Shown: one piece after another, positions 28,850-59,298 of the stretch
How positions within the stretch are numbered: the stretch's first letter is position 1
Layout of the letters: each line of letters opens with the position of its first letter
Assembly (NCBI RefSeq): GCF_932294415.1
Contig: NC_065535.1
Location: 67,229,862-67,293,861 of the forward strand
Length of the DNA: 64,000 bases
DNA from: Quercus robur
Taxonomy: Eukaryota > Streptophyta > Magnoliopsida > Fagales > Fagaceae
Direction: 5' to 3'
Position numbers and translations under genes: made by a program
The notes under the pieces: generated by a model
What the model saw: the letters and a program-made list of their open reading frames with translations, nothing else
The model's database searches: none
Told to the model about the DNA's origin: nothing

Positions 28850-29831
28850 GTTTTGTGTGTGTGTGTGTGTGTAAGGGATGAGTGTGAGAGAGTGTGAAGA
28901 CTTAAGCTTAAAATGAAGAACATGTGGAGTTCGCGAGAAGCTAACCCGCGAAATAGCTACGTGTAGAGCACATGACTGGAATGCAAAGAGTCATGCCAGC
29001 CTAGAGTTTTTATGAGTGTGTCATGGGTAAGGCCTTCCTGCGAGATACTCGCAAAACATTCTGTTGAGCTAATTTGTCATGTTTGTTTTACCAAGTCTTT
29101 ACTCATACTATATATACCCTTATTACCCATATATTGTAAGGTGTGCTTTTCAGAGAGAAAACCCTAGAATACACACTTGAGAGTTAGAGATTGTTATACC
29201 CGCAATCATCTACACATTTCTTTGTGGTTTTTCTTTACTCCTACCTCTCCATTTCTAAATCATTGAGAGGTTGATAGCCCAAACATTTACCACACCCAAT
29301 CTGAGTGTCAAGTCAGATTTTGGTGCTACTAGGAAGCATTAAAAGGAGCCAGTCATTGGTGGATGCAATCGAGCGTATTGTGGAATTTGGGAAAGGTAGA
29401 GAAGACAAGGTTCCGAGAAGCCAATTGGAAGCAGGAGCATGGAGGGCTTAAGTACATTGGGTAGACTAGGCTTGAATGGTCTTTTGTTATTTGTGTACTC
29501 CAACTTTATTCTCTAATAGATCGATTACCGCTTGAAGGGCGGCGGAGAGGTTTTTCGCCGAGTTCTTCGGTTTTCTCTTCGATAACACGCCTCGGTGTTA
29601 TCTTGTGTTTGCATCTCTCTTCTTTACTCTTAAACTTTACTTTATACCATTGATAATGGATGAATATGGCTTAGGGTAGTGTTATCAGTTGCTTGCATTC
29701 ATTTACTCTTATTCTGCACTTATTCTAAGTTAGAGTAAAACCAATCTAGCCGAAATTTTAATTTTGGGGGGGGGGGGGGTATAAACAAGCTCTTGTGTTT
29801 TTCACACAAATCTAAGCTTTCACTGGATAAT
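28850..29831. other. Unclassified repetitive-looking segment with (GT)n and a 14-G run
   Basis: It begins with a (GT)n run (about 28855-28872) and contains a 14-G homopolymer at 29766-29779. In between, features such as 'CTATATATACCC' and inverted phrases around 'GATAACACGCCTCGGTGTTATC' (29581-29602, a perfect hairpin) resemble an LTR with its terminator/poly(A) region. No coding sequence is recognised and no boundaries are proven. Confidence 0.35.
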
Positions 29832-31505
29832 CATATTACTGTCTTCTTTAATTTTTCGCACTAAGTAATATGTTTGCATGTGTTTAACCTAGATCTCATA
29901 ATTAACCTATGTAACTATTTGGCTAATTCATTAGGTTAAACTAATTTGGATTTAAGGGGTCTAAACATAAGCAAACAAAATCAATAAACATGGAGAGATA
30001 TTTATATTCTAGAAAATTCTAGAAGATACAAAATTAAAAATAACTACTTCTAATTCTAATAATTAACAAGCGGCTACATAATAATCAATGAACAAGGATT
30101 TTATTTTTTTAAATTAAAAAAGAATCTTAATATAAAGATTTTTATTACATATGAAAATGGAAGATATCATATTACTGTCTTCTTTAATTTTTCGCACTAA
30201 GTAATATGTTTGCATATATTTAACCTAGATCTCATAATTAACCTAAGTAACTATTTGGCTAATTCATTAGGTTAAACTAATTTGGGTTTAAGGGGTCTAA
30301 ACATAAGCAAACAAAATCAATAAACATGGAGAGATATTTATATTCTAGAAAATTCTAGAAGATACAAAATTAAAAATAACTACTTCTAATTCTAATAATT
30401 AACAAGCGGCTACATAATAATCAATGAAGAAGGAATTTTTTTTTTAAATAAAAAAAGAATCTGAATATAAAGATTTTTATTACATATGAAAATGGAAGAT
30501 ATCATATTGCTGGCTTCTTTAATTTTTCGCACTAAGTAATATGTTTGCATGTGTTTAACCTAGATCTCATAATTAACCTAAGTAACTATATGGCTAATTC
30601 ATTAGGTTAACCTAATTTGGGTTTAAGGGGTCTAAACATAAGCAAACAAAATCAATAAACATGGAGAGATATTTATATTCTAGAAAATTCTAGAAGATAC
30701 AAAATTAAAAATAACTACTTCTAATTCTAATAATTAACAAGCGGCTACATAATAATCAATGAACAAGGATTTTTTTTTTAAATAAAAAAAGAATCTGAAT
30801 ATAAAGATTTTAATTACATATGAAAATGGAAGATATCATATTACTGTCTTCTTTAATTTTTCGCACTAAGTAATATGTTTGCATGTGTTTAACCTAGATC
30901 TCACAATTAATCTAAGTAACTATTTGGCTAATTCATTAGGTTAAACTAATTTGGGTTTAAGGGGTCTAAACATAAGCAAACAAAATCAATAAACATGGAG
31001 AGATATTTATATTCTAGAAAATTCTAGAAGATACAAAATTAAAAATAACTACTTCTAATTCTAATAATTAACAAGCGGCTACATAATAATCAATGAAGAA
31101 GGATTTTTTTTTTTAAATAAAAAAAGAATTTGAATATAAAGATTTTTATTACATATGAACATAGAAGATATCATATTACTGTCTTCTTTAATTTTTCGCA
31201 CTAAGTAATATGTTTGCATGTGTTTAACCTAGATCTCATAATTAACCTAAGTAGCTATTTGGCTAATTCATTAGGTTAAACTAATTTGGGTTTAAGGAGT
31301 CTAAACATAAGCAAACAAAATCAATAAACATGGAGAGATTTTTATATTCTAGAAAATTCTAGAAGATACAAAATTAAAAATAACTACTTCTAATTCTAAT
31401 AATTAACAAGCGGCTACATAATAATCAATGAACAAGGATTTTTTTTTTTAATAAAAAAAGAATCTGAATATAAAGATTTTAATTACATATGAAAATGGAA
31501 GATAT
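29832..31505. repeat. Higher-order repeat copy 1 (monomers 1-5)
   Basis: Five diverged monomers, 1674 bp in all, each more like its counterpart five positions downstream than like its neighbour. Confidence 0.9.
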
Positions 31506-33188
31506 CATATTACTGTCTTCTTTAATTTTTCGCACTAAGTAATATATTTGCATGTGTTTAACCTAGATCTCATAATTAACCTATGTAACTATTTGGCTAA
31601 TTCATTAGGTTAAACTAATTTGGGTTTAAGGGGTCTAAACATAAGCAAACAAAATCAATAAACATGGAGAGATATTTATATTCTAGAAAATTCTAGAAGA
31701 TACAAAATTAAAAATAACTACTTCTAATTCTAATAATTAACAAGCGGCTACATAATAATCAATGAACAAGGATTTTATTTTTTTAAATTAAAAAAGAATC
31801 TTAATATAAAGATTTTTATTACATATGAAAATGGAAGATATCATATTACTGTCTTCTTTAATTTTTCGCACTAAGTAATATGTTTGCATATATTTAACCT
31901 AGATCTCATAATTAACCTAAGTAACTATTTGGCTAGTTCATTAGGTTAAACTAATTTGGGTTTAAGGGGTCTAAACATAAGCAAACAAAATCAATAAACA
32001 TGGAGAGATATTTATATTCTAGAAAATTCTAGAAGATACAAAATTAAAAATAACTACTTCTAATTCTAATAATTAACAAGCGGCTACATAATAATCAATG
32101 AAGAAGGAATTTTTTTTTAAAAAAATAAAAAAAGAATCTGAATATAAAGATTTTTATTACATATGAAAATGGAAGATATCATATTGCTGGCTTCTCTAAT
32201 TTTTCGCACTAAGTAATATGTTTGCATGTGTTTAACCTAGATCTCATAATTAACTTAAGTAACTATATGGCTAATTCATTAGGTTAACCTAATTTGGGTT
32301 TAAGGAGTCTAAACATAAGCAAACAAAATCAATAAACATGGAGAGATATTTATATTCTAGAAAATTCTAGAAGATACAAAATTAAAAATAACTACTTCTA
32401 ATTCTAATAATTAACAAGCGGCTACATAATAATCAATGAACAAGGATTTTTTTTTTTTAAATAAAAAAAGAATCTGAATATAAAGATTTTAATTACATAT
32501 GAAAATGGAAGATATCATATTACTGTCTTCTTTAATTTTTCGCACTAAGTAATATGTTTGCATGTGTTTAACCTAGATCTCACAATTAATCTAAGTAACT
32601 ATTTGGCTAATTCATTAGGTTAAACTAATTTGGGTTTAAGGGGTCTAAACATAAGCAAACAAAATCAATAAACATGGAGAGATATTTATATTCTAGAAAA
32701 TTCTAGAAGATACAAAATTAAGAATAACTACTTCTAATTCTAATAATTAACAAGCGGCTACATAATAATCAATGAAGAAGGATTTTTTTAAAAAAAAATA
32801 AAAAAAGAATCTGAATATAAAGATTTTTATTACATATGAACATAGAAGATATCATATTACTGTCTTCTTTAATTTTTCGCACTAAGTAATATGTTTGCAT
32901 GTGTTTAACCTAGATCTCATAATTAACCTAAGTAGCTATTTGGCTAATTCATTAGGTTAAACTAATTTGGGTTTAAGGAGTCTAAACATAAGCAAACAAA
33001 ATCAATAAACATGGAGAGATTTTTATATTCTAGAAAATTCTAGAAGATTCAAAATTAAAAATAACTACTTCTAATTCTAATAATTAACAAGCGGCTACAT
33101 AATAATCAATGAACAAGGATTTTTTTTTTTTTTTTTAATAAAAAAAGAATCTGAATATATAGATTTTTATTACATATGAAAACGGAAG
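31506..33188. repeat. Higher-order repeat copy 2 (monomers 6-10)
   Basis: Same monomer order as copy 1, 1683 bp. Length differences lie mainly in the T-rich/A-rich run near each monomer's end (for example a longer T run near 33121-33136). Confidence 0.9.
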
Positions 33189-33352
33189 AGATGCTAGCCT
33201 AGCTAGGACCTAACCATTTATATCTTCGGCTAAACGAATTATAAATCTTTGAAATAGATATAGGCCCTGCCTCATTACAAAAGAATTATTGTGGGTCGCC
33301 CCACAACGTAGCTATTAATCTAGATTATTATACAACGAAGTTAAAAGAAGAA

Positions 33353-33775
33353 TCATGACATCATGACCCTAAATTCATCAAAATTGAGGACCCCATCACC
33401 ATTGAGATCAAATTGAGAAATCATCACCTTACAGTCATCGATAGTTCTGGACTCACCCAGTCTACTAAGCATCTTCTTAAGGCTCTTGGGTGTAATACAT
33501 CCACTACCATCCATTTCATACATCTTAAATGCTTCTTTCAAATCCTTCACTTTCTCTTCCTCTTCCCCTCCTTCAAGAAACCTCACGAAGTCTTCAAAAC
33601 CCAACAACCCATCTCCATCTGAGTCCAGCAACTCCACCACCGCATCCGCCTCCGCCAGCAAAAGCTCCCCACCTATTGCCTCAACACATTGCTGCAGCTC
33701 CGAGGGTGATATCTTTGAATCTCCATTGTCATCAAAGTGATTGAACACACGCTCATATTGTGTGAGTTTGTCCAT
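33353..33775 (-). CDS. Calmodulin-like calcium sensor (CML38/CML31-like)
   Basis: This is an intact single-exon gene of 140 aa, close to the usual size of the small CML37/38/39 group. Four EF-hand positions are visible: loop 1 D15-E26 (DDNGDSKISPSE), loop 2 D51-D62 (DSDGDGLLGFED), a degenerate loop 3 at E87-S98 (starts with E, no terminal acid) and loop 4 D123-E134 (DLNGDGVLNFDE). Hence three sites probably bind calcium. An acidic linker 'EGGEEEEKVKD' separates the two lobes. 'CITPKSLKKMLSRLGESRT' is the group's signature in the third hand. There is no N-terminal acylation or membrane signal. Members are cytosolic/nuclear sensors induced by wounding, hypoxia and calcium; that is family knowledge. 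The 3' end abuts the satellite array. Confidence 0.93.
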   Translation of the reverse strand: MDKLTQYERVFNHFDDNGDSKISPSELQQCVEAIGGELLLAEADAVVELLDSDGDGLLGFEDFVRFLEGGEEEEKVKDLKEAFKMYEMDGSGCITPKSLKKMLSRLGESRTIDDCKVMISQFDLNGDGVLNFDEFRVMMS

Positions 33776-34097
33776 ACTGCTGTTATGGAAGTTTATGTTA
33801 TAGCCTATTTTACTTTCAAAAAAAATATGTACTCAAACCAAATTAGCTATAAAACTAAAAATACAAAACTAAACCAAGCAAAAGAACTAAAAAACTAACC
33901 CAAAAACGCTATAAGAAAATAGACAAGGGTGACGCTTATATATGCCCTTAATTAGGCAAGGGTAAGAACTAAGAACTTGGTATTGCTTTACAAAGAAATA
34001 TTCGGAAAGTGAGCTTCTTTGAAAGTAGAAAAGTGAACTTTTTTCTCGTGAAAAATCAAAAATGAATCTGAACCTGTTTCTGGTACGGAATGCGTGG

Positions 34098-37982: not shown

Positions 37983-38664
37983 TGGCGATTTTGGCCCATT
38001 AGCATTTATTTTTAAAATATTTAGGCCCGAAACACTGTTTGGGAAATATATAGCAATATACCACTTTTTTAGGTACTCGAGTTTGGCAAGCTCGAGTACC
38101 ATGTTTTTTTAATCCACTATCGCCCCATATTCAAGGAACCCTATAGTGGCGTTTTTAAGCCCTATAGTGACGTTTTCGGGCCAAAAAACGCCACTATAGG
38201 GCCCCTTGAACCTGTTATGGGGGCTTATAAAAAAATTTTGCAGGAAAACGCCGCTATAGGGACCAAAAACGTCACTATAGGGCTTAAAAACGCCACTATA
38301 GGGCCACTTGAACCTGTTATGGGGACTTATAAAAAAATTTTGCAGGAAAACGCCGCTATAGGGCCCGAAAACGTCACTATAGGGCTTAAAAACGCCACTA
38401 TAGGGCCCCTTGAACCTGTTATGGGGACTTATAAAAAAAATTTTGCAGGAAAACGCCGCTATAGGGCCCGAAAACGTCACTATAGGGCTTAAAAACGCCA
38501 CTATAGGGCTCCTTGAATATGGGGCGATAGTGGATTAAAAAAACATGGTACTCGAGCTTGCCAAGCTCGAGTATCTAAAAAAGTGGTATATTGCTATATA
38601 TTTCCCAAACAGTGTTTCGAGCCTAAATATTTTAAAAATCAATGCTAATGGGCCAAAATCGCCA
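37983..38664. mobile_element. Non-autonomous TIR transposon with ~170-bp inverted arms and 102-bp tandem core
   Basis: The ends are TGGCGATTTTGGCCC and GGGCCAAAATCGCCA, flanked by identical GCTCTTTT (37975-37982 and 38665-38672; 9 bp if the adjoining A is counted). The arms stay nearly identical for about 170 bp. Each arm also contains its own hairpin built on TACTCGAG...CTCGAGTA. The core (about 38143-38505) is a tandem repeat: CCACTATAGGG recurs at 38191, 38293, 38395 and 38498, a 102-103-bp period, with related 'CGCCGCTATAGGG' and 'CGTCACTATAGGG' in each unit. Long open frames on both strands (38109-38501 minus, 38217-38492 plus) just translate the repeat. TSD length fits hAT (8) or MULE (9). 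Confidence 0.85.
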
Positions 38665-40864: not shown

Positions 40865-40869
40865 AAGAT

Positions 40870-42823
40870 TGTGGTGGGCCTTTTTTGAGATATAAGGCTG
40901 GGCTGCCTCCTACTGTACTGGGCCTAAGTGTTCTAGATAAGAGAGTTGAGACCGGTCCAATTGTAACCCAACTTGGTCCGACTTGTGCACAAACTATGCC
41001 CCGTTTGCCGAAATTTTGGTCACATGCCCATGACAGGCGGAGCTGCTATGGAAGAGTTATGGTAAACAGATGTAATAATAATAAAAGAAAGCATGTTTGC
41101 CATTAGACAGAATAAATAAAGGATCCTTAATTAAAATGAAGACCACAACGACAAGAAACGCCTCGTAAATGAAATAGTAGAAATAAGCAGAGAAGAAATG
41201 AGTTATCAAAGAAGGAAAAGATCAATCCACCACGCTAAGTTATGTTATAGGACCAAGACCAAGGAGGGAACCATTTCCTCAATGTGAGTAATCTCTTAGG
41301 AAGATCCTGTCATAGAAATTAATCACTTTGAGGGAACGGGCCTAAATGACTTGTGCCCAAAAAAGTCCTTTGCCTCTAACAAAGAGTAGGCATTTAGGGG
41401 GAGAGAGGAGATTAACCTATTGGTGCATGCCTGCCATTCTATGCTCTCTATTTTTGTTCTTCTTTATCCTCTTTTCTTTTCTCAATGCTTACCTATCTAG
41501 TAATGTTGTGATTCTCTCCTAGAGGTTACTATTGTCGTAATGATGATCCCCTTTTACTATGCATGACAAGGGTTCTTTATATACTGCCTGTCGTGACTGA
41601 TTTTTACCATTTTAGCCTTTAACTACCCTTGTCTGGTCTGGAAATCCCTGCCGACTACCACTGGCTTGTCAGTTGTCCAACCACCATCATTTACTTGTGC
41701 TGGTTGCTCCACTTCCCATTACCAGACAAATAAGATTATTTTGTTTGCTTGCTCACCGTGGCATTCTTATCCATCACGATGTGGGTGTTCTCTCTTTCTA
41801 TCCCTCATGGCATGCACCTAGTGGTTCCAACTCATCCTTACTTCTTTTGAGCAATATGTTATCCCAGCAGGACATTTTCCCAAAAAAACCTGAGTAGGAA
41901 TCCTAGAATAGGTTTTCCCTTCTCCCCATCGCCAGACCATACCCTTTCTTACCTCTGACTCATGACTCACCACTTCCTGTATTGGCTGGGAACAAACTGG
42001 TGATGTCTGGGCCTTGCGCGTGCTTCACTTTTGTGTACGTCCAAAACTTGTTCGCTGCTCATGCATTTGCCGTGGTCTGGAGGCTCATCTGTACATTCTG
42101 CCGCTCATCCTTGACTTCTTATGGCTTGAGCTATTTTCTGATTTCCCATTCTTTATGGCCTACTCCTTTTAGGGGCTAGGCTTCGCTTGATTGTGGGCTT
42201 TTCTTCCTTCAACCTACTCTTTTACTCATTCCGTAGTCTTGCTACCATTCCTACCGTACCACTCTACCATTCCTGTTGTGATGTTATTTGACCCAAGTTT
42301 GCTCGGCCTCTTTGGGCCTGCTGCTTATTCTTCTCTCAATGACTCAATATGGTCATTGGATTCATACTCAAGCTATTTTAGGCTTTTTTATTACATTGCT
42401 TGTGGGCTCCTTTGTTCCATTTATTTCTTCTTGGGCATCCTTGGCCCTTTTTCTAATTCTGCGATCCCATGGGTTTTTACTAACTCTTTTGGGCTTCCTT
42501 AGTCCAATTACCTTATCCTTCATCCTTGGGGGCTCATGGACTTTCTATCAACCCCTTACTTTCTTTACTTGTATTACTTCGGGCCTGCTGTGGCCCATTC
42601 TCACTTTTCTACATCACATACTGCCCATGGGTTTGCTACTTCTCTCTCCAGGCTCTTTTAGGCCCGTTTGCTTCCTCAAGGCCCATTTATTTATTTTATG
42701 GGCCTATGATCCATTATTCCTGCCACTCGGATTTAGTGGTTTTTCTATCCACTCATTAACTCTTCTCTGCCCATATTATTGGGCTTCTTCCCTCTACTGG
42801 GCTTTCCAAAATGAGCATCAATA
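40870..42823 (-). repeat. 3' LTR of the gypsy element (1954 bp)
   Basis: Begins TGTGGTGGGCC on the plus strand and ends at a position aligned with the other LTR's CAACA, here mutated to CAATA. From about 42300 to 42820 it has a dozen TGGGCC/TGGGCT motifs on both strands, the core of TCP-bound site II elements. This dense block lies just upstream of the plus-strand PMD gene. Long open frames inside (e.g. 42288-42836) are stop-free LTR sequence, not genes. Confidence 0.9.
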
Positions 42824-43216
42824 TTTAGCCCCCTGAGCATATGAAGCGTTCCTGAGGTTTATATGCGAATAATAGACTTTCCTGTCCTTTCTGTCTTTCC
42901 TTCTTCTTTTTCTTCGTGGGCTTTTTTGAACAGTGGACCCTAATTCATATGTTTTTCTTTTCTTGCCATGAACATTGTTGTCTTTTCAAATTTCCCAATT
43001 TAGCAGTTATTTTGAAACACAGCCCCCGCTTCATTAATTTCATCCTTTATCCGATGGCTAACCCATTGCATCCTTTTGCGTCAACTTTAATGACGTTGGT
43101 ACTTAAGGGAGATTCTCTTCATATTCCAAACACAATCACTTTCTCCCTTTTCCTTCCTTCACTGTGTTCTTTCTCTCAAACACCATCATCCATTTACTCC
43201 AACCAACCGCTACACC

Positions 43217-46200
43217 ATGACATTGGCGAAAGGCCACGGTTCTTCCCGTTGTAAGGAAAAAAAGAGGTTGTCTTCAATGATCTGGTTGCGTGAGATGTAG
43301 GCGAAGGGGCCGTCTATTCCGAATCGGACCATTCCGATGAGAAGGAGGCACGGCGTGATCCTGATAGTGAGTGCGCTCCTCTTATAGACCCTTGGTATAA
43401 TACCCATGCCTATTTCCCAAAAGTTCCTGGTGATTACACACTGCCGCTGCCAGGCCATGTGTGACTTGCCCTTTGCCGTCACAACATGGATGTATCTTGG
43501 GCTCTGTTGGCTTCTTCGATTCCAGATCTTGCCATCCGCCAAGGTACTTCACTCCCTGTGTCTATTCTCTTCTAGTTTAGATTGGGTACTGCTTTGGTTG
43601 GAAGGAGTGGGTGGACTAGGAGTTGTCCGACGCGGGTTTTATGGAGGCGCTACAGTGGGCAGGTGTATTGAAGGCCATTATTTCATCCCGCTGCTTGTCT
43701 AACTATAAGGACCTCTTCAACCTCCACCTTTTGGTTCGTCGATGGTGCACTGCCACTCATAGTTTTTTTTCTCTCCTGTGGTAAGATTGTCGTGACCTTC
43801 GAGGATGTGGCCAACTAGTTGCTTTTGCCCATTCTTGGGGATGTTGACCTTGGTGCCTTGGAGCTCTCTCCGGAGGAAGAAGTTGTGGAGGCCGAATTGA
43901 AGAAGTGGATGAGTGGTAACGTGAAGTTGTCATATTGGGTTAGTTCCTCTTCTAAGATCTTCGTTGCTGCTCGCCGTGTGGCCTTCATCACGTTCTGGCT
44001 CTGTAAGTTTATCTCTAGCTTTCATCCCCACTATGCTGTGAAGCCTTTGTATTTTCAGTTAGCCATTAAGATATCTGCTGGGGTAAGTCTGCTGTTGGCA
44101 CCCATGTTCTTGGGATATTTTTATGTTCAATTGGATATCCTGCGGAGTGATGAGGATCAGGCAGGTTCCTGCCACATAGTTACTACCTCTGTTCACAGTA
44201 CCATCCCACAACATTTGCTATATGAGCGCTATGCTAAGCATTTGGCAAAGTGTAGGCCTGTTCACTTTGCCAAGGAGAGATACAAGTCATGCCCGAGAGT
44301 TATCACTGATTTCTGTAGCAGATTTGAGCTTGATTTTCCATTGGCTTTTTGTTGGGTTGGTTTGAAGCCGATTGGTCATCCTGCTGTTGAATTTTTTGAC
44401 AAAAAGAGTTGGGTTTTCTTGGAGAGCATATAGGAACTTAGGCACGGGTTATACATGTGCTGATTCTATGATGGGTCCATTTGTTGATATTGTTGGGACC
44501 ACTCCCCTGTTGACTGGTTTTGAGGAAAGGGGTATCACTTACTTGGTAGCCACCAATGTTGGGTGGTTGCCTTACTTGGCTGATGAGGGTGTTAGATTTG
44601 TGCATTATCCTGCTAACAGGGTGAGGAGGCAGTTCGGGTTGGATCAGGATATTCCTGAAGACCTTTCTTCCCTTATAGAGTCCCCTACTTTTGTTTGGCC
44701 ATTCCTGCAGCACACTGCTTTTGAGTTTTGGAGCAAGCATTTTACTACAGTCACTATCCCAGGTTCACAAAGAGAGGGTATTTTTACTGCTACCATGCAC
44801 GAATACTGGCAGGCTGTGATGACCTCATTTAAGAAGGAGTTATTAGGCAGCTATGGGTTTTCTCTTATTCCTCATAACGGACTTGGTGCAGTTATTTCTG
44901 CCAACCCTCAGTTGCTTTTGCCCTCTAAATTTGTGTTGGCATACGCTAGGAAGTAGAGTCGATTTGCTATATTCGAGTGGGTTGAGGAGGATAGAGGGTG
45001 GATCTGGCATGCCGGTGACTATCTCCCGGGTTGGGAGAAGAGAGTAAAGGTGACAAACATTTCTGTGCCTGGTAAGAAGAGTTCTGCCAAGTCTAAGTCT
45101 GCTAAGAAGGGTGATGATTCTTCTGAGACTTGTTCAGACATTATACCTTTTGAGAGTGACCTTCCTCCCATGGGTAACATTGTTTTAGAAAGCTTTCCTC
45201 CCCTTTCTGCTCGCACTCGTTCTAGCAGGCGCCCTACTGCTAGTAAGTCCAAGCCTACTGCTCCATGGCCCTCTACTGATGCTCCTCCTTCTAGTAGGAC
45301 CTGAGGAAGTAAGAGAAAGACATCTCCCCCTCCTACGTCCACCACTATTGAGAGGAGAGTATGTTATCTCTAATTTTGCTTCATCTTATTTATATATTTT
45401 TTTATAGGGCTTTTCTATGGCTAACCCCTTGTATTTGTTAACTCATCTCCTTATCCTTGTCTTCTGTTTTTCTTTTGCAATCTAAACACAAGGAGGATGC
45501 GTTTGCCACCCGTCCTATATTACTGGATGAGCCCGAGTCTGAGGTATATCTCCTTCCTTTCTTTCTTCCTTTTCTTCTCTTTTGCACATATTTCCTTTGC
45601 CATATGCCATTGTTTGTCCTATCTCCCTTTCTACCCTCATTTCTCTCTCTGTTTGTTTTTCATCATCAACCGTTATGCATTCCTCTCTTCCTTTTTTTTT
45701 TTTTTTTTTTTTTGTTTCCCAAGCTGAGCTCGAGCCTATCTCCATATATCACCCCACAGCTGAAGAGATTTCTACCTCCATGGACACACCCGTGGAAGGT
45801 TTCTTTAATGGGGCTGATGTGGTGTTTGAGGCCACGGCTTCTGCCACTCCTGCTATTGCACAGGGAGTTCCTGCTGAGACTCCTATCCCTTCTACTGAGC
45901 TGGTACCCATGGATGAGGGTACTCATACTAAGAGGGTTAGTGAGGCCGCTCCCATTCCTACTGAGACGCTTACTCCCTAAGAGGGAGCCATTTCTCCTGT
46001 TGCTGCTCAGACTAAGGTTGCTTCTCCTGCCACACCTCTCGTTATCTCTACCAGTGATCCCTTCACAGCTTTATCTTAGGTCGTGAAGGATGGCTCTTCT
46101 TGGTGGTTACCCCTTCTTCCATCCCTAGCTCTGCTACACGTGGGCCTGATGCAGACTTGTCCTCTGAGGGATCCGAGGATGTTCTTGAGGATCCTGATGA

Positions 46201-46339
46201 TGAACCCACCATGAAAAAGAGGATTTTTGATTTTAATGAAAAGGAGAGTGTTGACCATAAGGCCGAGTTCATGGGTATGTATCTCTATTATCTTGTTAAG
46301 TTCCCCCTTTTTTTTTATTGCCCTCCTCTTTCTTCTCCT

Positions 46340-46379
<40 letters not shown>

Positions 46380-47381
46380 CTATTTAACCTTCTGATGCGG
46401 TCTGCCCTTTACTTTGCATGTTTGTTCCTTTGATTGCAGAGACTTTTAAGGAACCAGAAGTTGTAGCAGACACAAAGATGCCCATAGCCACTTCTCCTGC
46501 CGCACCTGTAGCTCCCGTTTTTGCCATACTTTCAGCACCAATTTCTGCCGTACCTACAGTATCAGTTTCTGCCATACCTACAGTATCAATTTCTACCATT
46601 CCTACAGTGCCAATTTCTACCGTACTTTCTGTAACTACTTTTGCCATTCCCACAGCCCCCATTCTCACAAGTCCTGGTAAGTTTCCTTTCCTTTATCTCC
46701 TTCTTCATTTCTTCATTGTGAGTTCATTCTTCCTTGCTTCATGGTTTCTCATACCACACTCCATGCTTCTTACCAGATTCGATTCTTACTCCCCCTTCTC
46801 AATTTGAGGTGAGCAGCAGTTCTACTCCAATTCCGAACCTTGTGGGTGGGTCTGCAGCCTTCTTTACATATTTTGATCAACCTGAGGTTAATGAATTTGA
46901 TCCTGCGGACTTCTGGGGTTCCGAGCCTCCCTATGTTGACTTCCATGGCTTCAGAGTTCTTGGGGATTGTGCTTCTCATTTGGAGGCAGTCTATAGTAGT
47001 CGTGGTGACTTCATGCAGGTATTCCGCCTCGGCCATTCTGCTAGGAAACACTTCTTGAAGTTGCTGGGAAGCGTGATGAACGATATTGAGCATAACTTTG
47101 TTGACACAGTTTCCACCGAGAGGATCCTGCAGTGGAGGGCTACGATTCAAGAGCTTGTTAGCGTGGGCTTTGTTGTGGAGGTCATTCTAGACCATCTTCG
47201 TGAGATTGCTCGAGCCTTCTTCATGAAAAAGGTTCAACCTGCTGTTGATGCCATTGATACATGCCTCCAGGCTCTGAGGAAAGAGGTGGCAAACTTGAAG
47301 GGTTGCCGTGAGCGCCTTCTTTCTAGTATTGGTGGATCCAGTCACTTTGGAGATCAGCCTTTCATTTCTGGGCTTCGTTGA
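43217..47381 (+). pseudogene. Plant mobile domain (PMD) gene, antisense inside the gypsy element
   Basis: The frame starts 'MTLAKGHGSSRCKEKKRLSS' at 43217. The PMD fold (PF10536, aminotransferase-like) follows: 'AGFMEALQWAGVLKAIISSR', 'FNLHLLVRRWCTATHS', 'VVTFEDVAN', 'RRVAFITFWLCKFISSFHP', 'LAIKISAGVSLLLAPMFLG' and 'TIPQHLLYERYAKHLAKC', then 'PANRVRRQFGLDQDIPED' and 'YWQAVMTSFKKELLGSYG'. A Lys/Ser-rich tail, a Pro/Thr/Ala/Val repeat (46510-46670) and a helical C-terminal region (46800-47381) complete it. Introns with GT/AG sites are visible (donors near 45543, 46275, 46678; acceptors near 45722, 46439, 46778). Stops (43617, 43818, 44954, 45301, 45978) and frameshifts (near 43760, 44430) mean it is dead. 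PMD genes are known as host silencing factors (MAIN/MAIL) and as passengers in gypsy and Mutator elements. Confidence 0.82.
46345..46372. repeat. (TA)n microsatellite
   Basis: About 13 TA units, inside an intron of the antisense PMD gene. Confidence 0.9.
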
Positions 47382-47390
47382 TGATGTAGT

Positions 47391-47490
47391 TTCCCTTTTA
47401 TTTTTCTTCACTTACTCCCCTATCTGGTACACTTTATGTTTTCCCTTTTATTTTTCTTCACTTACTCCCCTATCTGGTACACTTTATGTT
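47391..47490. repeat. Perfect 50-bp tandem duplication
   Basis: The 50 bases starting 'TTCCCTTTTATTTTTCTTCA' at 47391 are repeated without any visible difference at 47441-47490, just after the PMD stop codon. Confidence 0.9.
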
Positions 47491-47774
47491 TCCTATAGCA
47501 CTTATTTGGCAAATTTGATATGATTGCCATAGTTTGGATTTGTAATTATGATGTTACACTTTGCTACTACTTTTGGCTATTGCTATGACATAGTATGCTT
47601 TTGTAATGCTTCATACTCTTTCATTACATACTATTAAAAGCATGTTACAATCATGTCTCGTGACATAGTCACTTGAAGGAAAAACATAAAACTCATTAAA
47701 CAAAAAGGGATAACTACACAACTTTTTCTTTTAAGCATAATAATGTTTCAGCCACTTCCCATTGATGGGATCCA

Positions 47775-49148
47775 TCAGGTCTGGGCCAAACGGTAATACC
47801 CACTTGCATGCGCCTCTCTTATCACAAGGGGTCCCTCCCACTTTGATGAAAACTTAGATGGTCCTGCCATACCTCGCTTGACGTGGTCCGCTACTTTTAA
47901 CACGAGTTGCCCTTCTACGAACACTTTCTCTTTAGTCATTCTGCCATAGGCTTCAGTCATCCTCTGTCTATATCTGTGGCTGTGCTCTTGGGCCTCCTCC
48001 CTTTTTTCATTAAGCCCCTCTAGGTCTTTACATCTTTTTGCTGTATAGGCCCCCTTTTCTTTTTCTTTTTCCCGCATCTGCATAACCCTTAAAGATGGAG
48101 TCATCACTTCTACCGAGCTTATTACCTCTGTCCCGTAGACCAAGGAAAAGGGTGAAAACCTTGTGGCAGACTTTGGTGAATTTCTATAAGCCCAAAGAGC
48201 ATCTGGCAGGTGCATTGCATATCCTCCTGTATATTCTTGGCTCATTTTGCTGATGATCTTTATGAGAGTTTTGTTTGTCGCCTCTACTTGTCCATTTCCT
48301 TGCGGGTAATAGGGTGATGAATAATGGTGTTTGACTTGGTAGAATTCTAGCATCTTCCTCACATCACTGTCGACAAAGGGTGTGCCCTTGGCACTGATGA
48401 TCCAATGGGGTACCCCAAACCTCACAATTATATTTTTCTTTGATGAAGTTATCTACTGCTCCCCTCGTGGCTTTACGGAGTGGCACTGCTTCCGCCCATT
48501 TGGTGAAGTACTCTGTAGTCACCAAGATCCATATGTATCCACGTGATGGTGGGTTAATTGGTCCTACCAAATCAAGCCCCTAAGTGTGGAAGGGCCATGA
48601 GGTGACCATGCTGTGTAAGTTCTGTGGATGAGTGTGAATCATGTTGGCTTGTACTTGGCAACTGTGGCATTTTTTCACAAATTCTACTGTATCTTTCTTC
48701 ATGGTGGGCTAGTAGTAACCCATTTGTAGCAGGCATCTGTACAACTTTTTCATCCCTGGTGTTCTCCACACTCTCCTGCGTGTACTTCTTTTACCATCTC
48801 TCTTGCTTCCTCGAGACCCAAACATTATAATGGGTCCCCATCATACCTTTTCTTGAAAAGGACTCCATTATGCAAAAAGTAATGTGTTGCCAACCTTTTA
48901 AGCTTGTACCTTTCACTGTACTTTTATGGCAGAATACCTTCTGTCAAATACTGAGTGAATGGACTTCTCCAGTCTTTGCTGATGAACACAGTGTAACTTT
49001 CCTCTTTGTCTATCGCAAGCTGGCAGGTCTTGTATTGGTTTTGGACTTGATCTATGTCTTTACCCATACTTGGCCAATAGAAGCCTGTCCTTTGAAGTCT
49101 GCGGTAAAGATTGACTTCTCCGCATGAACCACAAGTCTTATCATGCAC
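47775..49148 (-). pseudogene. Gypsy integrase remnant
   Basis: The zinc-binding N-terminal region is at 49148-48924 ('LYRRLQRTGFYWPSMGKDI', 'CQLAID'). The catalytic core follows: 'GLDLVGPINPPSRGYIWILV', 'TKWAEAVPLRKATRGAVDNF', then 48425-47775 with 'FGVPHWIISAKGTPFVDSDV' and 'YYPQGNGQVEATNKTL'. The first Asp and the Glu of DDE are visible, but the second Asp position reads Ala (ISAKG). A frameshift near 48420-48360 and stops break it. The C-terminal part ends 'GPLVIREAHASGYYRLAQT'. Confidence 0.85.
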
Positions 49149-49496
49149 TTCCTTTAACTTTTTTTGGGCCTCTTTTCACCCTACGCATCTGGACAATACC
49201 CCACCTGGCATCCTGCTGTACAATTCTTCTCTTACCAAGGCGTAGTCTTTTAGCACCTACAATTCTGCCGTATCTTCTCCCTTCGTCAAAGCTTCCTTTA
49301 TAGGAATCCTCCAATCTTCTTCACATTGTTCCTCTTGGAACCTTTCCTTCAACATCTCCATAATAGACTCCTTCCTCTTGTTGACTTTTATCCTGGTGCT
49401 ATCTCCTTCAAAAAATATCTATGAGCCTAATGAGGCCAATGCGTCCATGTATTGATTCTCATTCCTTGGGGCATGCTCTATTTCAAAAGTTGCAAA

Positions 49497-49739
49497 CTAT
49501 TCCTCCATCTTCTGGGCCATTGTTCTGTACGAGGCCAAGTTGGGTTCCTTCACAGAGAAGCTTCCCTTGGCCTGGCAGACCACCAGGTTCAAATCACCCA
49601 TTACTTTTAAAAGCTTGATCCCTATTTCAAAGGCCATGGCTAATCTAGTTAGATAGGCCTCATATTTTGCTGTGTTGTTTGAACAAGGGAATTCTAATTT
49701 GAATGAAAGCACCACAGCCTTATCTTTTTTGTGATACAA
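49497..49739 (-). pseudogene. Second (archaeal-type) RNase H remnant
   Basis: 'VVLSFKLEFPCSNNTAKYEA' and 'EIGIKLLKVMGDLNLVVCQA' match the additional RVT_3/aRNH domain of Tat-clade gypsy elements (Ogre, Retand, Grande types). Its position between the first RNase H and integrase supports the clade call. Confidence 0.75.
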
Positions 49740-49795
49740 AACTACCCCACTCCTCCTGATTGGGTGGTAGAAGACCCATCAAACTTCATCACCCA

Positions 49796-50278
49796 TTACT
49801 CTCTGACTTCTTCTACCATAGCTACCTCTCTTGGGACCTCATCATCCAGCGAGAATTCTTCTTCTCCTGGGAATTGTGCCAGTAAGTCTGCTATAGCTTG
49901 GCTCTTTACTACCTTGGGTGTTCCCGCTTTCAAGTTGTATTGTGACAATTGTAACAGCCACTGGGATATTCTGCTAGAAAGAATTGGCTGCTGCAGCAAA
50001 GCATTGATTGTGTGAGACTTAGTCATTAGCCACACCTCGTAGGCCAAGAAATAATGGCGTAGCCTTTGTGAGGCATGTACCATAGCCAAGCATGCCCTTT
50101 CTGCCCTTGGGTAATGAGTCTTTGTATCCTTTAAGGCACGACTGATGTAGTAAACTGGATGCTCAATGCCACCTCCATCTTCTTGGGCAATCAATGCACC
50201 TATGGCATACGAGTTGGTGTCCAAGTAGAGCAACAATGGCTTTTTGCGAATTGGGGCTTGCACAATAGGGAGGTTCAT
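49796..50278 (-). pseudogene. Gypsy RNase H (RT-associated) remnant
   Basis: An open stretch of 160 codons has 'KPLLLYLDTNSYAIGALIAQ', 'HPVYYISRALKDTKTHYP', 'ERACLAMVHASQRLRHYF' and 'RISQWLLQLSQYNL', the standard RNase H domain following gypsy RT. It belongs to the same polyprotein as the flanking domains. Confidence 0.85.
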
Positions 50279-51488
50279 TATAATCTACTGTAGCCTTTTG
50301 AAGGCCGTCTATTGTGCTCCTCCCCACTCAAAACTTTTTCCTTTCTTGAGTAATCTGGTGAAAGTAGAAGTGATTGATGCCATTCCAGGGATGAATCTCC
50401 AGATGTATAAGACTTTGCCCAGGAACTTTTTAACTCCTTCATTGTGGTTGGCGGTTTCATGGTTGCTATAGCCGTAGCTTTGGCCGGGTCTACGTCTATT
50501 CCTTTAGTGTGAACCAGGAAACCCAAGAATTTCCCAGAGGACACTCCAAATGCACACTTGAGAGGGTTCATTCTCAGTTTGAAAGCCCTACATCCCTCAA
50601 ATACCCTTCTCAAAACTTGGGCGTGCTCTTCTCGCTTCTTTTATTTCACCACTATGTAATCCACATGGTTCTCCAGTTCCGGATGCATCATGTCATGAAA
50701 TATAGCCATCATTGTCCGTTGATAAGTTGCACCTGCATTTTTCAACCTAAAAGGCATCACAGTGTAGTAGAAGTTGCCTATGGATGTTCTGAAAGTAGTT
50801 TTCTCTGCATCCTTTGGCACCATCCTGATCTAATTATACCCATTGAATTTGTCCATAAATGAAAACATGGCGCTCCCCGCTGTAGAATCTATCAATAAAT
50901 CCATGTTTGGCAGTGAGAATTCATCCTTTGGGCAGAATCTATTGAGATTTCTGAAATCTACACAACACCTTATCTGCCCGTTCTTCTTCTTTACCGACAC
51001 TCTGTTGGATAACCAACACTAGTGTTGAATGGACTTAATGAATCCTATGACCAGCAATTTCTGTACCTCTTTAACTATTTGCCTTTCTATCTCAGTGTGG
51101 AATATCCTAGCAGGTTGGGCCACTAGCTTGGCCTCGGGGTCCACATTCAATGTATGTACTACTAGCCCTGGATCCAACCCTGGCATTTCACTGTAATCTC
51201 ATGCGAAGACATTTTGAATTCTTTCAGCAACAGTATCAATTCTAATTTTTCCTTTTCCGACAGTCTTGAACTAATTGAGATGGGTCTTGGTTCCTGTGAG
51301 TTAGACCCCAAGTTAATTTCCTCCAACTTTTCTTCTGCCACAACTTGTGCATCTTTTTCTGCCACAAATTCCTCGTCTTTTTCTTTGCCAATTCCTTCCT
51401 TTGAACCTTCTTGAGCCATGCAGCATACCATGCTTTTGTGTTGCCACTCTTGTCTAGGGCCCACTTGCATTTCACACGTGTGCCCCAC
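50278..51488 (-). pseudogene. Gypsy reverse transcriptase remnant
   Basis: Recognisable blocks on the minus strand are 'PGLVVHTLNVDPEAKLV' (about 51170), 'SVKKKNGQIRCCVDFRNLN' (about 50990), 'TTFRTSIGNFYYTVMPF' and 'NAGATYQRTMMAIFHDMM' (50823-50641), then 'GFLVHTKGIDVDPAKA'. The active-site box usually written Y-V-D-D reads H-V-D-Y here, so a metal-binding aspartate is lost. Stops lie near 51020, 50831 and 50640. Confidence 0.85.
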
Positions 51489-51747
51489 GCACCTTCATAA
51501 TTTGTATACAATCCTACCGTCAAGGCCTCAGACATTGACACATTGTGGTGCGTCATCTGACTCTAAGGCGGGTGCTTCCTTCCTTTTCTTCTTCTGCGAT
51601 AGCAACTCCCTTAAATCGGGTTCTGGATCACTTTGGATGTCTTCCCACCTAGGTACGAAGGTGCCTCGCAGCTTTGATATTGAGCTCTCCCTAGATGGTG
51701 CCCATTGGTCGTAGAACATAGTCTCTACTAGATAAGCTTCTGCATGC

Positions 51748-52180
51748 TTAAATGGCGATGGATTTGCTGCTATGCGTATCATTTTGCCATTCAATCTCTC
51801 TTTCACGCACTAGTGATAGGTGGACGGGACTAATCGGTACTTGTGTAACCATGGCCTCCCCAAAAGCACATGATATGAGACTTTCAGTTTTACCATGTGA
51901 AACCGAGCTAGGGAAGCTATGGGGCCCACCTTTAACCATAGTTGAATGTGGCCTGTGGTGTATTTGCCCCTTCCTCCAAACCCTGTCACTTCCATTAGGC
52001 ACCCCTGAATCTTTCTTTCTAAAATTTCTGCCGCTTGTAAAGTGCTTAATGGGATGAGATTTACAAAAGCGCCCATATCTACCAAGGCTCTCTTGATGGG
52101 TATTTGGTTTATGGATGCTGCTAAATAAAGGGGCCTCTTGTGGTCTGAGTACCCCACCTCCATATCCTTATAATTAAAAG
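51748..52180 (-). pseudogene. Gypsy aspartic protease remnant
   Basis: The 52163-51810 frame has the retropepsin pattern: 'RALVDMGAFVNLIPLSTL' and, near the end, 'YHVLLGRPWLHKYRLVPSTY'. The catalytic triad position reads D-M-G instead of D-T/S-G, a change expected to abolish activity. Frame continuity with gag and RT is lost. Confidence 0.8.
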
Positions 52181-52439
52181 TGATCTCACTTGATTCCTAC
52201 AAGAGGGCTCTGTCCTCTGCGACTTTTGCTGTTAAACATTCTATTCCTGCCTTAGAGGCAATGCTTACTAGGACCTCTGTGGCTATCCTTCGCTTCTTTG
52301 CTGTAAGCCCCAGTTGGTCAAACAAATTCTTGAACTTGGAGCTTTTCTGTAAGGTGGTAATTGCTGCAGCAAGCAGGGCTGGATTTTCTTCTTCGCCCTC
52401 CCCTGGATCTGCACAAATCACAACTGCTGCTACACCTTT

Positions 52440-53714
52440 CCCTTTGTGGTTTGGGAATGGATTTCTTTGAACTTCCGGCTAGGACAGCTCCAAGGTCCCT
52501 TCCTTGATTCTGCAGTGTACCAATCTGCGGAGTGCCCAACATTCTGCGGTGGGATGTTGCACGTAGTTGTGCAAACAGCAGAAGCGTGGGTCCCTCCGCT
52601 CTTCTTCTGTGGGCTTTCTGGAAACTTGGTTGGGCTTAAAGACTCCATCTGCTATCCACTTATCTAAGAGCACATCGAGCTCTTTTGGGGTACATGGTAG
52701 GGGTGGAAGGGTATCATATTCCCTTTCGTCAGTTTTCCTCTTTCTTTCTCCAGTGGATACTGCCATGGCCTACGAAGCGCTTCTTTTGTCCGAGCTTAGC
52801 TTCACTAACTAAGCTGTCTTTCTAGCCTTCTGCAATAATTGTGCAAACTGGGAGATTTCCAAGTTTTCCAAGGCGGCTCTGTACTCCTTGATCATATTTG
52901 TCATACACATTTCCAGCAATGTCCTTTCTTCACAATAATCATAGCAGTCGAGTGCTATATCTCTGAACCTTTTGATGTATTCCATTAAATCCTCACCATT
53001 TCTTTGCTTGGTTGCTTGCAAGGTTGCAAGCGTTACTGTTTCCTCTCCATGGAAGTATTTAGTGCAAAATACATCCACCATCTCATCCCAAGTTGGGATT
53101 GATCTTGGCTTTAAGCCGATGTATCAGGTGTATGCCCGGTCACATAGTGATTTGGAAAATTCCGGAAGGCATAAGTCCTCGTTTGTCGCATAAGGGCCAA
53201 GAGTATCAATAAACTTGCTCATGTGCTCAACGACACTTCTTTTCCTGCCATCGTACTGCGCAAAGACTTGCAGTTTGTATCTCTCTGGGTATAGTTTGCT
53301 GAGTATCCTTAGTGGGTAAGGAGGTCTTCGTGCATAGAATCTCTCCTTGGGCGCCCTGGCCCTTTCCTACTCCAGGAAAGTTGCTACTTCAGCTATAGTG
53401 ATGAAACGTTGTTCCGTATTCTACGGGACACCTCCTGTTGGTGTCTCTTCTTTGTCTACCACATGTTCCGGGTCATGCTGGCTTCCTTTCTTTCTTGTTT
53501 TGTCTGTCTTCAACTAATGGATTTCTTCCCTCATCTGTTGCTACGATTGCTGCAGTGACTGCAACACCTCAATGAAAACGTTGACATTGTCCGTGGGGAC
53601 TTTTGGCTGCAGTTGGGGTTCAACCCCCACTCTGTTGATACCTTCCGTCTGGTTGGGCTGCTGTTGATGAAGCGTTGTTGGCTTGGACTCTGCCTACGAG
53701 GGCACGACACTCAT
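52440..53714 (-). pseudogene. Gypsy gag remnant
   Basis: Minus-strand frames give the retrotransposon gag domain: 'FCTKYFHGEETVTLATLQAT' and 'YIKRFRDIALDCYDYCEE' (about 53081-52809). This is followed by 'MAVSTGERKRK...' and a Cys/His stretch 'FCCLHNYVQHPTAECW' (52766-52479) resembling the zinc-finger-like end of Tat gag proteins. The first Met candidate is at 53714. Several in-frame stops interrupt the reading frame, so no gag protein can be made. Confidence 0.8.
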
Positions 53715-53807
53715 GTTTCGCGTCGTCCTGGATTTTGGGGGCATTTGTTTGCAAGGGCTTCTATCCCTATCTGTTTCCCAACTCTCTAATGGAGTCACCA
53801 ATTTAAA

Positions 53808-55745
53808 TGTGGTGGGCCTTTTTTAAGATGTTGAGCTGGACTACCTCCTACTGTACTGGGCCGAAGTGTTCTGGATAAGAGAGTTAGGACTGGTCCAATT
53901 GTAACCCACCTTGGTCTGGCTTGTGCACAAACTATGCCTCGTTTGCCGAAACTTTGGTCACATGCCCATGGCAGGCAGAGCTGCTATGGAAGAGTTATAA
54001 CAAATAGATGTAATAATAATAAAAGAAAGCATGTTTGCCATTAGATAAAATAAATAAAGGATCCTTAATTAAAATGAAGACCGCAATGACAAGAAACGCC
54101 TTGTAAATGAAATGGCAGAAATAAGCAGAGAAGAAATGAGTTATCAAAGAAGGAAAAGATCAATCCACCATGCCAAGTTATGTTACAGGATCAAGACCAA
54201 GGAGGGAACCATTTCCTCAATGTGAGTAATCTCTCAGGAAGACCTGCCGTAGAAATTAATCACTTTAAGGGAAACGGACTTGAATGGCTACTACCCAAAA
54301 GAGTCCTTTGCCTCTAATAGAGAGTAGGCCTTTAGAGGGAGAGAAAGGATTAACCTATTGGTGCATGTCTGCCATTCTATGCTCTCTATTTTTTTTTCTT
54401 CTTTTTCCTCTTTTCTTTTTTCAGTGCTTACCTATCTAGTAATGTTGTGATTCTCTCCTTGATGTTAATATTGCCATCAGGATGATCCCCCCTTACTGTG
54501 TATGGTAAGGGTTCTTTATATACTGCCTGTCGTGACTGGTTTTTACCATTTTAACCTTTAGCTACCGCTGTCTGGTCTAGGTATCCCTACCAACTACCAC
54601 TGGCTTGTTAGTTGTCCAACCACCACCCCTTACCTATGCTGATTGCTCACCGTGGCATTCTTATCTGCCACGATGTGGGTGTTCTCTCTTCCTATCCCTC
54701 ATGGCATGCACCTAGTGCTTCCTACTCATCTTTACTTCTTTTGAGCAGTATGTCATCCTAGTAGGACATTTTCTCCAAAAAAACCTAAGCGAGAACCCCA
54801 GAATAGATTTTCCCCTCGCCCCACCGCCAGACCATACCCTCTCTTACCTTTGACCCATGACCCACCACTTCTTGTATTGGCTGGGTACAGGTTGGTGATG
54901 TTTGGGCCTTTAGTGTGCTTCACTTCTGTGTATGTCTAAAACTTGTCCACTACTCATGTGTTTGCCGTGGTCTGGAGGCTCATCTGCACATTCTGCTGCT
55001 CATCCTTGACTTCTTATGGCGTGAGCTATTTTTTGATTTCCCATTCTTTATGGCCTGCTCCCTTTAGGGGCTAGGCTTTGCTTGATTGTGGGTTTTTCTT
55101 CCTTCAGCCAACTCTGTTACTCCTTCCGTAGTCTTGCTACCATTCCTGTCGTACCACTCTGTCATTCCTACTGTGATGTTATTTAACCCAAGCTTGCAAG
55201 ACCTCTTTGGACCTGCTGCTAATTCTTCTCTCAATGACTCTATATGGTCATTGGACTCATACTCATACTATTTTGGGATTTTTTATTACATTGCTTGTGG
55301 GCTCCTTTGTCTCATTTATTTCTTCTTAGGCATTATTGGCCCATTTGCTTTCCTTGGGCATCCTTGGCCCTTTTTCTAATTCTGCATTCCCATGGGCTTT
55401 TACTAACTCTTTTGGGCTTTCTTGGCCTAATTAACTTATCCTTCATCCTTGGGGCTCATGGGCTTTCTATCAACCCTTTACTTTCTTTACTTGCATTATT
55501 TCGGGCTTACTATGGCCCATTCTCACTTTTCTACATCACATACTACCCATGGGTTTGCTACTTCTCTCTCTGGGCTCTTTTAGGCCCGTTTACTTCCTCA
55601 AGGCCCATTTATTTATTTTATGGGCCTATGATCCATTATTCCTGCCACTCGGGCTTAATGGTTTTTCTATCCACTCACTAACTCTTCTCTGCCCATATTG
55701 TTGGGCTTCTTCCTTCTACTGGGCTTTCCAAAATGAGCATCAACA
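53808..55745 (-). repeat. 5' LTR of the gypsy element (1938 bp)
   Basis: Matches the left LTR over its whole length with many substitutions and small indels. It begins TGTGGTGGGCC and ends CAACA on the plus strand, followed by the AAGAT target duplication. The TGGGCY-rich block is also present (about 55200-55740). Confidence 0.9.
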
Positions 55746-55750
55746 AAGAT

Positions 55751-57993: not shown

Positions 57994-59298
57994 TTATTTC
58001 CTATAGATGGTGTACCAAGTTTGTACGAAGGAGAGGATAAGTAGGATGATAGCTGCCGCTGTTGACAGAATAGCCCATGGAGTGTTGAAATAATTGCGCA
58101 CAAGCATAGCACGCCATCTAGGCCACCTACGATTGTAATATTCATTCACTTCCTTGCAAAGGCTCTGGTAATAGATTTCAATGACACCTGTATTGTAGTA
58201 TAGCTTGTTGAAGAATGGGACCACATCCTCTGGATTCAACCAATTCTTAATGATCTTATTCTCACAAAGTATGTCCACGTCCTTGACAGTGTTAATGAGG
58301 TTGTCTAGGAGTATAGCATAGGAAGTGAATCTAGGTTTACAATTTGGGTAGCATTGTTCAAAGCTGATGATATTCCGAAAGAAGGATTCTGTTGTCTCCT
58401 CAATTTTTAATTGAGGGATTTCTAGGACACCATTATCAAATTTTATGTCCAAGAAACTTTTGGACTCACCCTTTCTGATGATTTTCACTCCAGCCTCTAC
58501 TAGGCTTGTAGCAGAGGGCAAGGGAGTCCACTCTATTGGATCTTCACCCGCTTCAATTGATGAAACCAACAACTTTCTAATCAAGTCAAGGATATGCTTT
58601 ATTTCTTGGATAGGAGGGTGAACAGAAGGAAGCTCTATCCCTAAATTCATATTAACAAAGACTTTGACCAGTTCAATTAGGGCAGCGTTGGCGTTGTTGT
58701 CTGTAAGATCCACGATCAAGTTAAACAAACGCTCCAGTACTATCCAAGGTACTTGGTTTTCTAGCAATATCAAGTCATGGGCTAGAAATTGCCTCATACA
58801 TGCCATGGAGAAAATTGGGTCATTATCCCCTATAAGCTCCATAAAAACCTGCTTGCAAAATAATTCAATAATGATGCAACCATCAATCACCAACATTTTT
58901 ACAAATTCATCTAGGTTGTAAACAATTGGCCCAGCATAACACTCATGAGCCTCTCTCCACATCTATGATTGAATTGATTAAATTTCTCAACATTTCCTCT
59001 GGAAAGGGTGATCAGAAATGAAGCCTTGCAAATACATACTTTTAATTTATTATGTTTCTTCGAACTTTGGATGGCCATGGTGGAAAGGCCCAATAGAAAA
59101 TGCATCAGGCACATAAGCCTTTTTATTAAGCTCTAGGAGTATGGTTGGGGTTTTGAAGATGCAACATTTAGGTGACATGAATCTATCTTGGGACATCTGA
59201 GCTTTTATAGAAGACACCAAACCTTCTATATCAATTGCAGCATTATTTGCAATTGATAATGAAAAAATTACATCATTATTTGCTTCATTCTCAGCCAT
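57994..59298 (-). pseudogene. DUF247 (UPF0481) membrane protein pseudogene
   Basis: DUF247 genes are usually single-exon and encode ~420-500-aa proteins with a C-terminal membrane helix. The N-terminal piece (59298-59050) has 'FKTPTILLELNKKAYVPDAF' and 'SIGPFHHGHPKFEET', then two adjacent TAA codons. Family-like text resumes in other frames and, from 58962, in a long frame: 'AHECYAGPIVYNLDEFVKML', 'DLILLENQVPWIVLERLFNL', 'LPSATSLVEAGVKI', 'FLDIKFDNGVLEIPQLKIEE', 'SFFRNIISFEQC', 'FTSYAILLDNLINTVKDVDI' and the terminal helix 'AILSTAAAIILLILSFVQTW'. At least one short deletion near 58955 and two stops break the N-terminal third. A truncated protein from 58962 is conceivable but would lack the N-terminus. 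Confidence 0.85.

Follow-up and report, generated by a model that had tools for sequence, protein, structure and literature searches.

A likely multi-exon plant mobile domain gene in reverse orientation within a decayed Ty3/gypsy retrotransposon of Quercus robur

We analyzed a window of 64,000 nucleotides (nt) from Quercus robur (contig NC_065535.1, positions 67,229,862 to 67,293,861; assembly GCF_932294415.1), numbered here from its first letter, and focused on the stretch from 43217 to 47381. This stretch lies inside a long terminal repeat (LTR) retrotransposon and carries, on the plus strand and thus opposite to gag-pol, a gene that matches the plant mobile domain (PMD). We consider it likely that the retrotransposon is a decayed Tat/Ogre copy in which pol and the 3′ LTR enclose a reverse-oriented, multi-exon accessory gene, whose product would join a PMD through a low-complexity linker to a C-terminal region.

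The complete element spans 40870-55745 (14,876 bp), and its membership among LTR retrotransposons is apparent from two LTRs and the target-site duplication AAGAT on both flanks. A first-pass annotation of this DNA had placed gag-pol on the minus strand and a PMD gene on the plus strand between integrase and the 3′ LTR. Both placements hold: the Pfam matches of the gag, protease-like, reverse transcriptase, RNase H and integrase pieces all fall on the minus strand, and those of the PMD on the plus strand. PMDs in gypsy elements were already known, as the annotation had also stated (PMC6317226; PMC5418596).

The antisense gene and its introns

The plus-strand gene sits between the low end of the integrase region (47775) and the high end of the 3′ LTR (42823), and is arranged tail to tail with pol at a distance of 393 nt. 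Its start was provisionally assigned from frame, position and the usual make-up of PMD proteins. The parts of the gene and its upstream spacer, all on the plus strand, are as follows.

42824..43216, plus: 393-nt spacer from the 3′ LTR to the first ATG of the antisense gene; possible antisense promoter region
43217..43543, plus: putative exon 1, with ATG, broken; open frames, GT donor at 43544, 0 of 2 pieces match Pfam
43544..43575, plus: candidate intron 1, 32 nt; GTACTT...TTCTAG, phase-compatible
43576..45358, plus: exon 2, plant mobile domain; PF10536 matches, in-frame stops and two frame changes
45359..45492, plus: candidate intron 2; 50% T, 10% G
45493..45543, plus: candidate exon 3, 17 codons; open frame flanked by candidate introns
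45544..45728, plus: candidate intron 3; 54% T, 8% G
45729..46274, plus: exon 4, low-complexity linker, broken; open frames
46275..46439, plus: intron 4, phase 1, 165 nt; GTATGT...TTGCAG, score 7.54
46440..46676, plus: exon 5; by eye rich in Pro, Ala, Thr, Ser and Val, 24-nt repeat at 46518-46625, no Pfam match
46677..46776, plus: intron 5, phase 1, 100 nt; GTAAGT...TACCAG, score 8.01
46777..47381, plus: exon 6, open up to its stop; weak PF05278 match

The PMD assignment made in the first-pass annotation was borne out by profile search, in which two of nine pieces (six from the plus strand, three from the minus strand) matched PF10536 in the first Pfam scan. The first match covers 43819-44430 (E 2e-6, 27.7 bits, profile positions 86-168 of 347) and the second 44366-44953 (E 2.9e-5, 23.8 bits, profile positions 275-342 of 347). 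Each is below the Pfam cut-off of 34.9 bits, yet the two are adjacent and in profile order, and both recurred on a repeat scan. Exon 6 weakly matched PEARLI-4 (PF05278, E 0.0019, 18.3 bits against a cut-off of 29.9). Against NCBIfam, the two PMD pieces gave no match and exon 6 gave weak, unconvincing ones (E 0.044 and 0.14), while among PDB sequences neither the PMD piece nor the exon 6 piece had a match at E up to 1.

Open frames are concentrated on the plus strand of the stretch, where the longest stop-free frame has 219 amino acids and the best four sum to 833, compared with 138 and 496 on the minus strand. None of 300 dinucleotide shuffles reached 219 or 833 amino acids (maxima 202 and 541). 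We also weighed a single unspliced open reading frame (ORF) but dismissed it, since the frame shifts or meets stops across T-rich gaps.

We scored frame-keeping GT/AG pairs in four of these gaps with plant splice-site frequencies, comparing each gap with 1000 first-order Markov randomisations. The score of intron 4 (7.54) was reached by six of the 1000 randomised sequences, with an antisense control of 2.92, and that of intron 5 (8.01) by five of 1000. In the gap of intron 2, the best-scoring pair (45337-45407) differs from the limits drawn. Pooled base composition differs between the five candidate introns (50% T, 9% G) and the exons (31% T, 25% G). This lends support but falls short of proof, because the intron limits were drawn by eye and thus chosen by the analyst. 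Taken together, the antisense gene likely has at least three introns, two of which stand on their own.

Element structure, lineage and surroundings

The remaining features of the element, in order of position, are listed below.

40865..40869: left target-site duplication AAGAT, identical to 55746-55750
40870..42823, minus: 3′ LTR, 1954 bp, 90.1% identity to 53808-55745
47775..48452, minus: integrase, C-terminal part; PF13683 E 0.0085 and PF00665 E 0.015, both below cut-off
48924..49175, minus: integrase zinc-binding domain; PF17921 E 3.2e-7, above cut-off
49497..49778, minus: candidate additional RNase H (aRH); PF13456 E 0.011, 16.1 bits against a cut-off of 21.6
49796..50284, minus: RNase H of pol; PF17917 E 7.8e-23, passes cut-off
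50278..50640, minus: reverse transcriptase, C-terminal part; PF00078 E 0.0012, below cut-off
51810..52196, minus: aspartic protease-like; PF13975 E 0.00074, below cut-off
52809..53123, minus: gag; PF03732 E 2e-9, passes Pfam cut-off
53791..53800, minus: candidate primer-binding site TGGTGACTCC, seven bases beyond the 5′ LTR
53808..55745, minus: 5′ LTR, 1938 bp; TATA-like words on the minus strand at 54520-54522
55746..55750: right target-site duplication AAGAT

The identity of the two LTRs refers to an alignment of 1907 columns, in which 155 transitions and 34 transversions correspond to a Kimura two-parameter (K2P) distance of 0.109. With literature substitution rates (1.3e-8 or 6.5e-9 per site per year), this distance gives an age of about 4 to 8 million years. 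In the spacer at 42824-43216, a purine-rich stretch on the minus strand adjoins the LTR. At the other end, by the 5′ LTR, TGGTGACTCC presumably resembles tRNA-Arg.

On the minus strand, the end of the reverse transcriptase (50640-50278) is followed by RNase H (50284-49796) and integrase (49175-47775), the order of Ty3/gypsy elements. Within this superfamily, the Ogre group of the Tat lineage is the most likely assignment, on account of the PMD, the length of the LTRs and the location of the candidate aRH. This aRH candidate, a match below cut-off (E 0.011), is located between RNase H and integrase, as has been reported of Ogre and Retand elements (PMC6317226). LTRs of 315-1,194 bp have been given for Retand clusters (PMC11963269) and of 1.9-6.5 kb for Ogre (PMC6431247); at 1954 and 1938 bp, those of the present element are outside the former range and inside the latter, at its lower edge. 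The Ogre primer-binding site is of the tRNA-Arg type (PMC9289625). A further Ogre feature is a spliced spacer that separates the gag-protease and reverse transcriptase ORFs; the corresponding region of the present copy is badly broken. The extra PMD ORF reported for Ogre elements is represented here by the two PF10536 matches. TRP28 (PF04195), the domain of Retand antisense genes, was found in none of eight pieces of the antisense gene at E up to 10 and not in the single exon 4 piece at E up to 0.1, a negative limited by HMMER filters, which discard most matches above E 0.1.

Just past the antisense gene, between the two convergent genes, there is a perfect tandem duplication (47390-47491) whose two 50-bp copies are identical despite the decay of the element. 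Outside the element, the window holds a satellite-like array in which a 336-bp unit is repeated ten times in tandem with 95% matches (29830-33189); this array adjoins a calmodulin-like EF-hand protein (33353-33832, stop-to-stop frame of 159 amino acids). At 37983-38664, an inverted repeat with 200-bp arms that are 98% complementary encloses a 102-bp tandem repeat in which the word CGCCACTATAGGGC recurs; the whole looks like a small foldback element or a DNA-transposon relic. A stop-to-stop frame of 748 amino acids at 22355-24601 contains three LysM domains and a protein kinase, with Pfam naming after NFP/LYK receptors, and a DUF247 protein is found at 57994-58962 (frame of 322 amino acids, profile positions 71-401 of 401, E 5.3e-88). 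Endonuclease, reverse transcriptase, zf-RVT and RNase H pieces of a broken element of the long interspersed nuclear element (LINE) type occur on the minus strand at 5917-9967. ARAGORN and Rfam searches found nothing in the window.

Decay, mechanism and rival explanations

The antisense gene has 2.54 breaks per kb (9 in 3549 nt of exon) and gag-pol 2.86 (16 in 5592 nt), rough counts that depend on hand-drawn pieces, allow for no intron in gag-pol and may miss breaks hidden in its gaps. Two stops at 43576-43619 are outside the nine; with them the antisense gene would have 11 breaks, or 3.1 per kb. On either count it shows no sign of younger age or better protection than gag-pol, and since it is broken at at least nine places, the whole protein cannot be made from the present copy, which is dead. 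The two regions are also close in G+C content (45.7% in the PMD gene and 44.5% in gag-pol, compared with 36.6% in the window) and in CpG depletion (0.39 and 0.36), although the latter likeness says little because three host genes of the window are at 0.25-0.39. As a means of separating the element from these host genes, CpG depletion fails, the ranges overlapping.

The similar decay bears on the origin of the PMD segment. One reading is that an ordinary gypsy element later received it as a nested insertion, for example a gene fragment or a Mutator-like element (MULE). MULE transposons do carry PMDs (PMC5418596), and the retained, host-like introns would be in keeping with such an event. The first-pass annotation had named sibling elements that reveal a nested insertion with its own boundaries as a finding that would count against an integral gene. 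In the present copy such boundaries did not appear: 42824-43300 and 47301-47800 have no terminal repeat in common (the best 15 matches listed are 8-13 bases long, none with an E below 0.18), and 42824-43217 is not linked with 47382-47775 by any exact direct repeat of at least 11 bases, a comparison that is blind to decayed ends and to ends outside these flanks. Together with the like decay of the PMD segment and gag-pol, and with the recurrence of PMDs in Ogre elements (PMC6317226), this makes a nested insertion highly improbable. Nearly as improbable, in our estimate, is that a host PMD gene was recently captured by this copy only and is without function for the element. Capture in antisense would likewise retain host introns, and LTR elements have been reported to capture genes (PMC7264820), but 57% of Ogre elements contain a PMD (Neumann et al., 2019; PMC6317226) and some PMD clades are confined to Gypsy elements (PMC5418596), both of which point to an old, shared component. 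We also compared PMD and integrase pieces with viral contigs and a PMD piece with bacterial and archaeal contigs; these scans returned 1, 1 and 52 pattern matches, of which none was confirmed as a relative, and since the collections are non-plant they say nothing about sibling elements.

If the gene is an integral accessory gene, active relatives would transcribe it by RNA polymerase II towards pol, from a plus-strand promoter that would have to lie in the adjoining spacer or the LTR. The genomic RNA, which would start in the 5′ LTR and be of minus-strand sense, would carry the reverse complement of the introns and would not be spliced there. The argument of the first-pass annotation, that introns opposite to the genomic RNA escape removal before reverse transcription, is sound: antisense introns can persist because the RNA used for reverse transcription holds them only as their unspliced reverse complement. 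The protein would most likely be nuclear and work for the element; a nuclear, regulatory role that benefits the element is a published proposal for antisense genes at this place. Whether it might compete with, or copy, host PMD proteins that act in silencing is a guess, and one we regard as doubtful. The idea of the first-pass annotation, that a PMD carried by a retroelement could interfere with the MAIN/MAIL silencing pathway or be its source, is likewise conjecture. Anti-silencing use of PMDs captured by MULEs is likewise a speculation, made by Ikeda et al. (2017; PMC5418596).

A different view of the same layout is that the antisense transcript matters and not a protein. The PMD frame would then be a remnant, and convergent transcription would yield double-stranded RNA (dsRNA) by which the element is regulated or silenced. 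The PMD gene and pol are indeed convergent across 393 nt, PMD loci of the tea plant yield 21-nt phased small interfering RNAs (phasiRNAs; PMC10673657), and a dsRNA role has been proposed in a review (PMC7264820). A long multi-exon frame that matches a protein domain would, however, be needless for mere antisense RNA, and we think this explanation rather unlikely.

Several observations weigh against the accessory gene interpretation that we prefer. It is drawn from a single broken copy, and from DNA sequence alone. The word TATA[AT]A is absent from the plus strand in 42424-43217, and none of three N-terminal pieces (43294-43781) matches the PMD in Pfam. The earlier count of at least three GT/AG introns stood up to randomisation for introns 4 and 5. 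Introns 2 and 3 scored at chance (658 and 576 of 1000 randomised sequences reached their scores), and in both the antisense controls outscored the real gaps (0.21 against -1.79 and -1.08 against -2.31); even for intron 5 the antisense control came near the real score (7.28 against 8.01). Candidate intron 1 (43544-43575) was outside the four gaps scored, and at 32 nt it is too short for a usual plant intron. Finally, the Ogre label stands on the PMD, the LTR length and an aRH match below cut-off.

Relation to known elements and implications

The present element shares with the Ogre PMD elements of PMC6317226 the Gypsy order of pol, the place of the candidate aRH, the extra PMD ORF and long LTRs, a likeness that covers the presence of the PMD and not its orientation. 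To be counted in that survey, an ORF had to be uninterrupted and 250 codons or longer, whereas the gene described here is intron-split and decayed. Retand elements with an antisense TRP28 gene (Vicient, 2025; PMC11963269) also have a long region between pol and the 3′ LTR, but carry TRP28 (PF04195) instead of a PMD, and their LTRs of 315-1,194 bp contrast with the 1.94-1.95 kb of the present element; the word "intron" is absent from the main text of that paper. In maize Grande, gene23 likewise lies between pol and the 3′ LTR as an accessory gene in reverse orientation; it has a promoter of its own and is a precedent for a plus-strand promoter here (PMC7264820). Its product is nuclear and has no clear similarity to other proteins (PMC7264820). 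Introns are also found in Ogre and EVADE elements (PMC12786077), which are plant LTR retrotransposons too, but there they have the orientation of gag-pol and are removed from the element's own sense RNA, while the ones considered here are on the opposite strand.

Among non-canonical domains, PMDs ranked first in frequency when 121 plant genomes were screened (PMC9289625). Ikeda et al. (2017; PMC5418596) described PMDs in Gypsy elements, as found here, and placed them in clades of their own (PMD-A1 and A2), apart from MAIN/MAIL, which are host genes and fall in PMD-C; the direction of descent was left open. Reverse-oriented accessory genes of plant retrotransposons are given as having no known function (PMC7264820; PMC11963269), and the review among these sources calls for a search for spliced antisense transcripts (PMC7264820).

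Elements with a PMD passenger are thus already known, and the multi-exon antisense structure may be new. Steinbauerova et al. 2011 is said by later papers to be a survey of such extra ORFs; it and the supplements of papers were outside the open literature searched, where, among the entries listed, we found no antisense PMD gene described as having introns. ORF surveys restricted to uninterrupted frames would shorten a multi-exon antisense gene. As a general proposition, PMD passengers of Tat elements could be multi-exon antisense genes that keep their introns through each cycle of retrotransposition, with the intron-joined C-terminal part missed by ORF surveys and the full proteins opposing host PMD silencing; in this full form we regard the proposition as unlikely. 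If PMD passengers are spliced, they could be expressed solely from an antisense promoter, which would provide a clean, strand-specific test of expression. A comparison of the full protein with the transposon-silencing proteins MAIN and MAIL1 would then also become possible.

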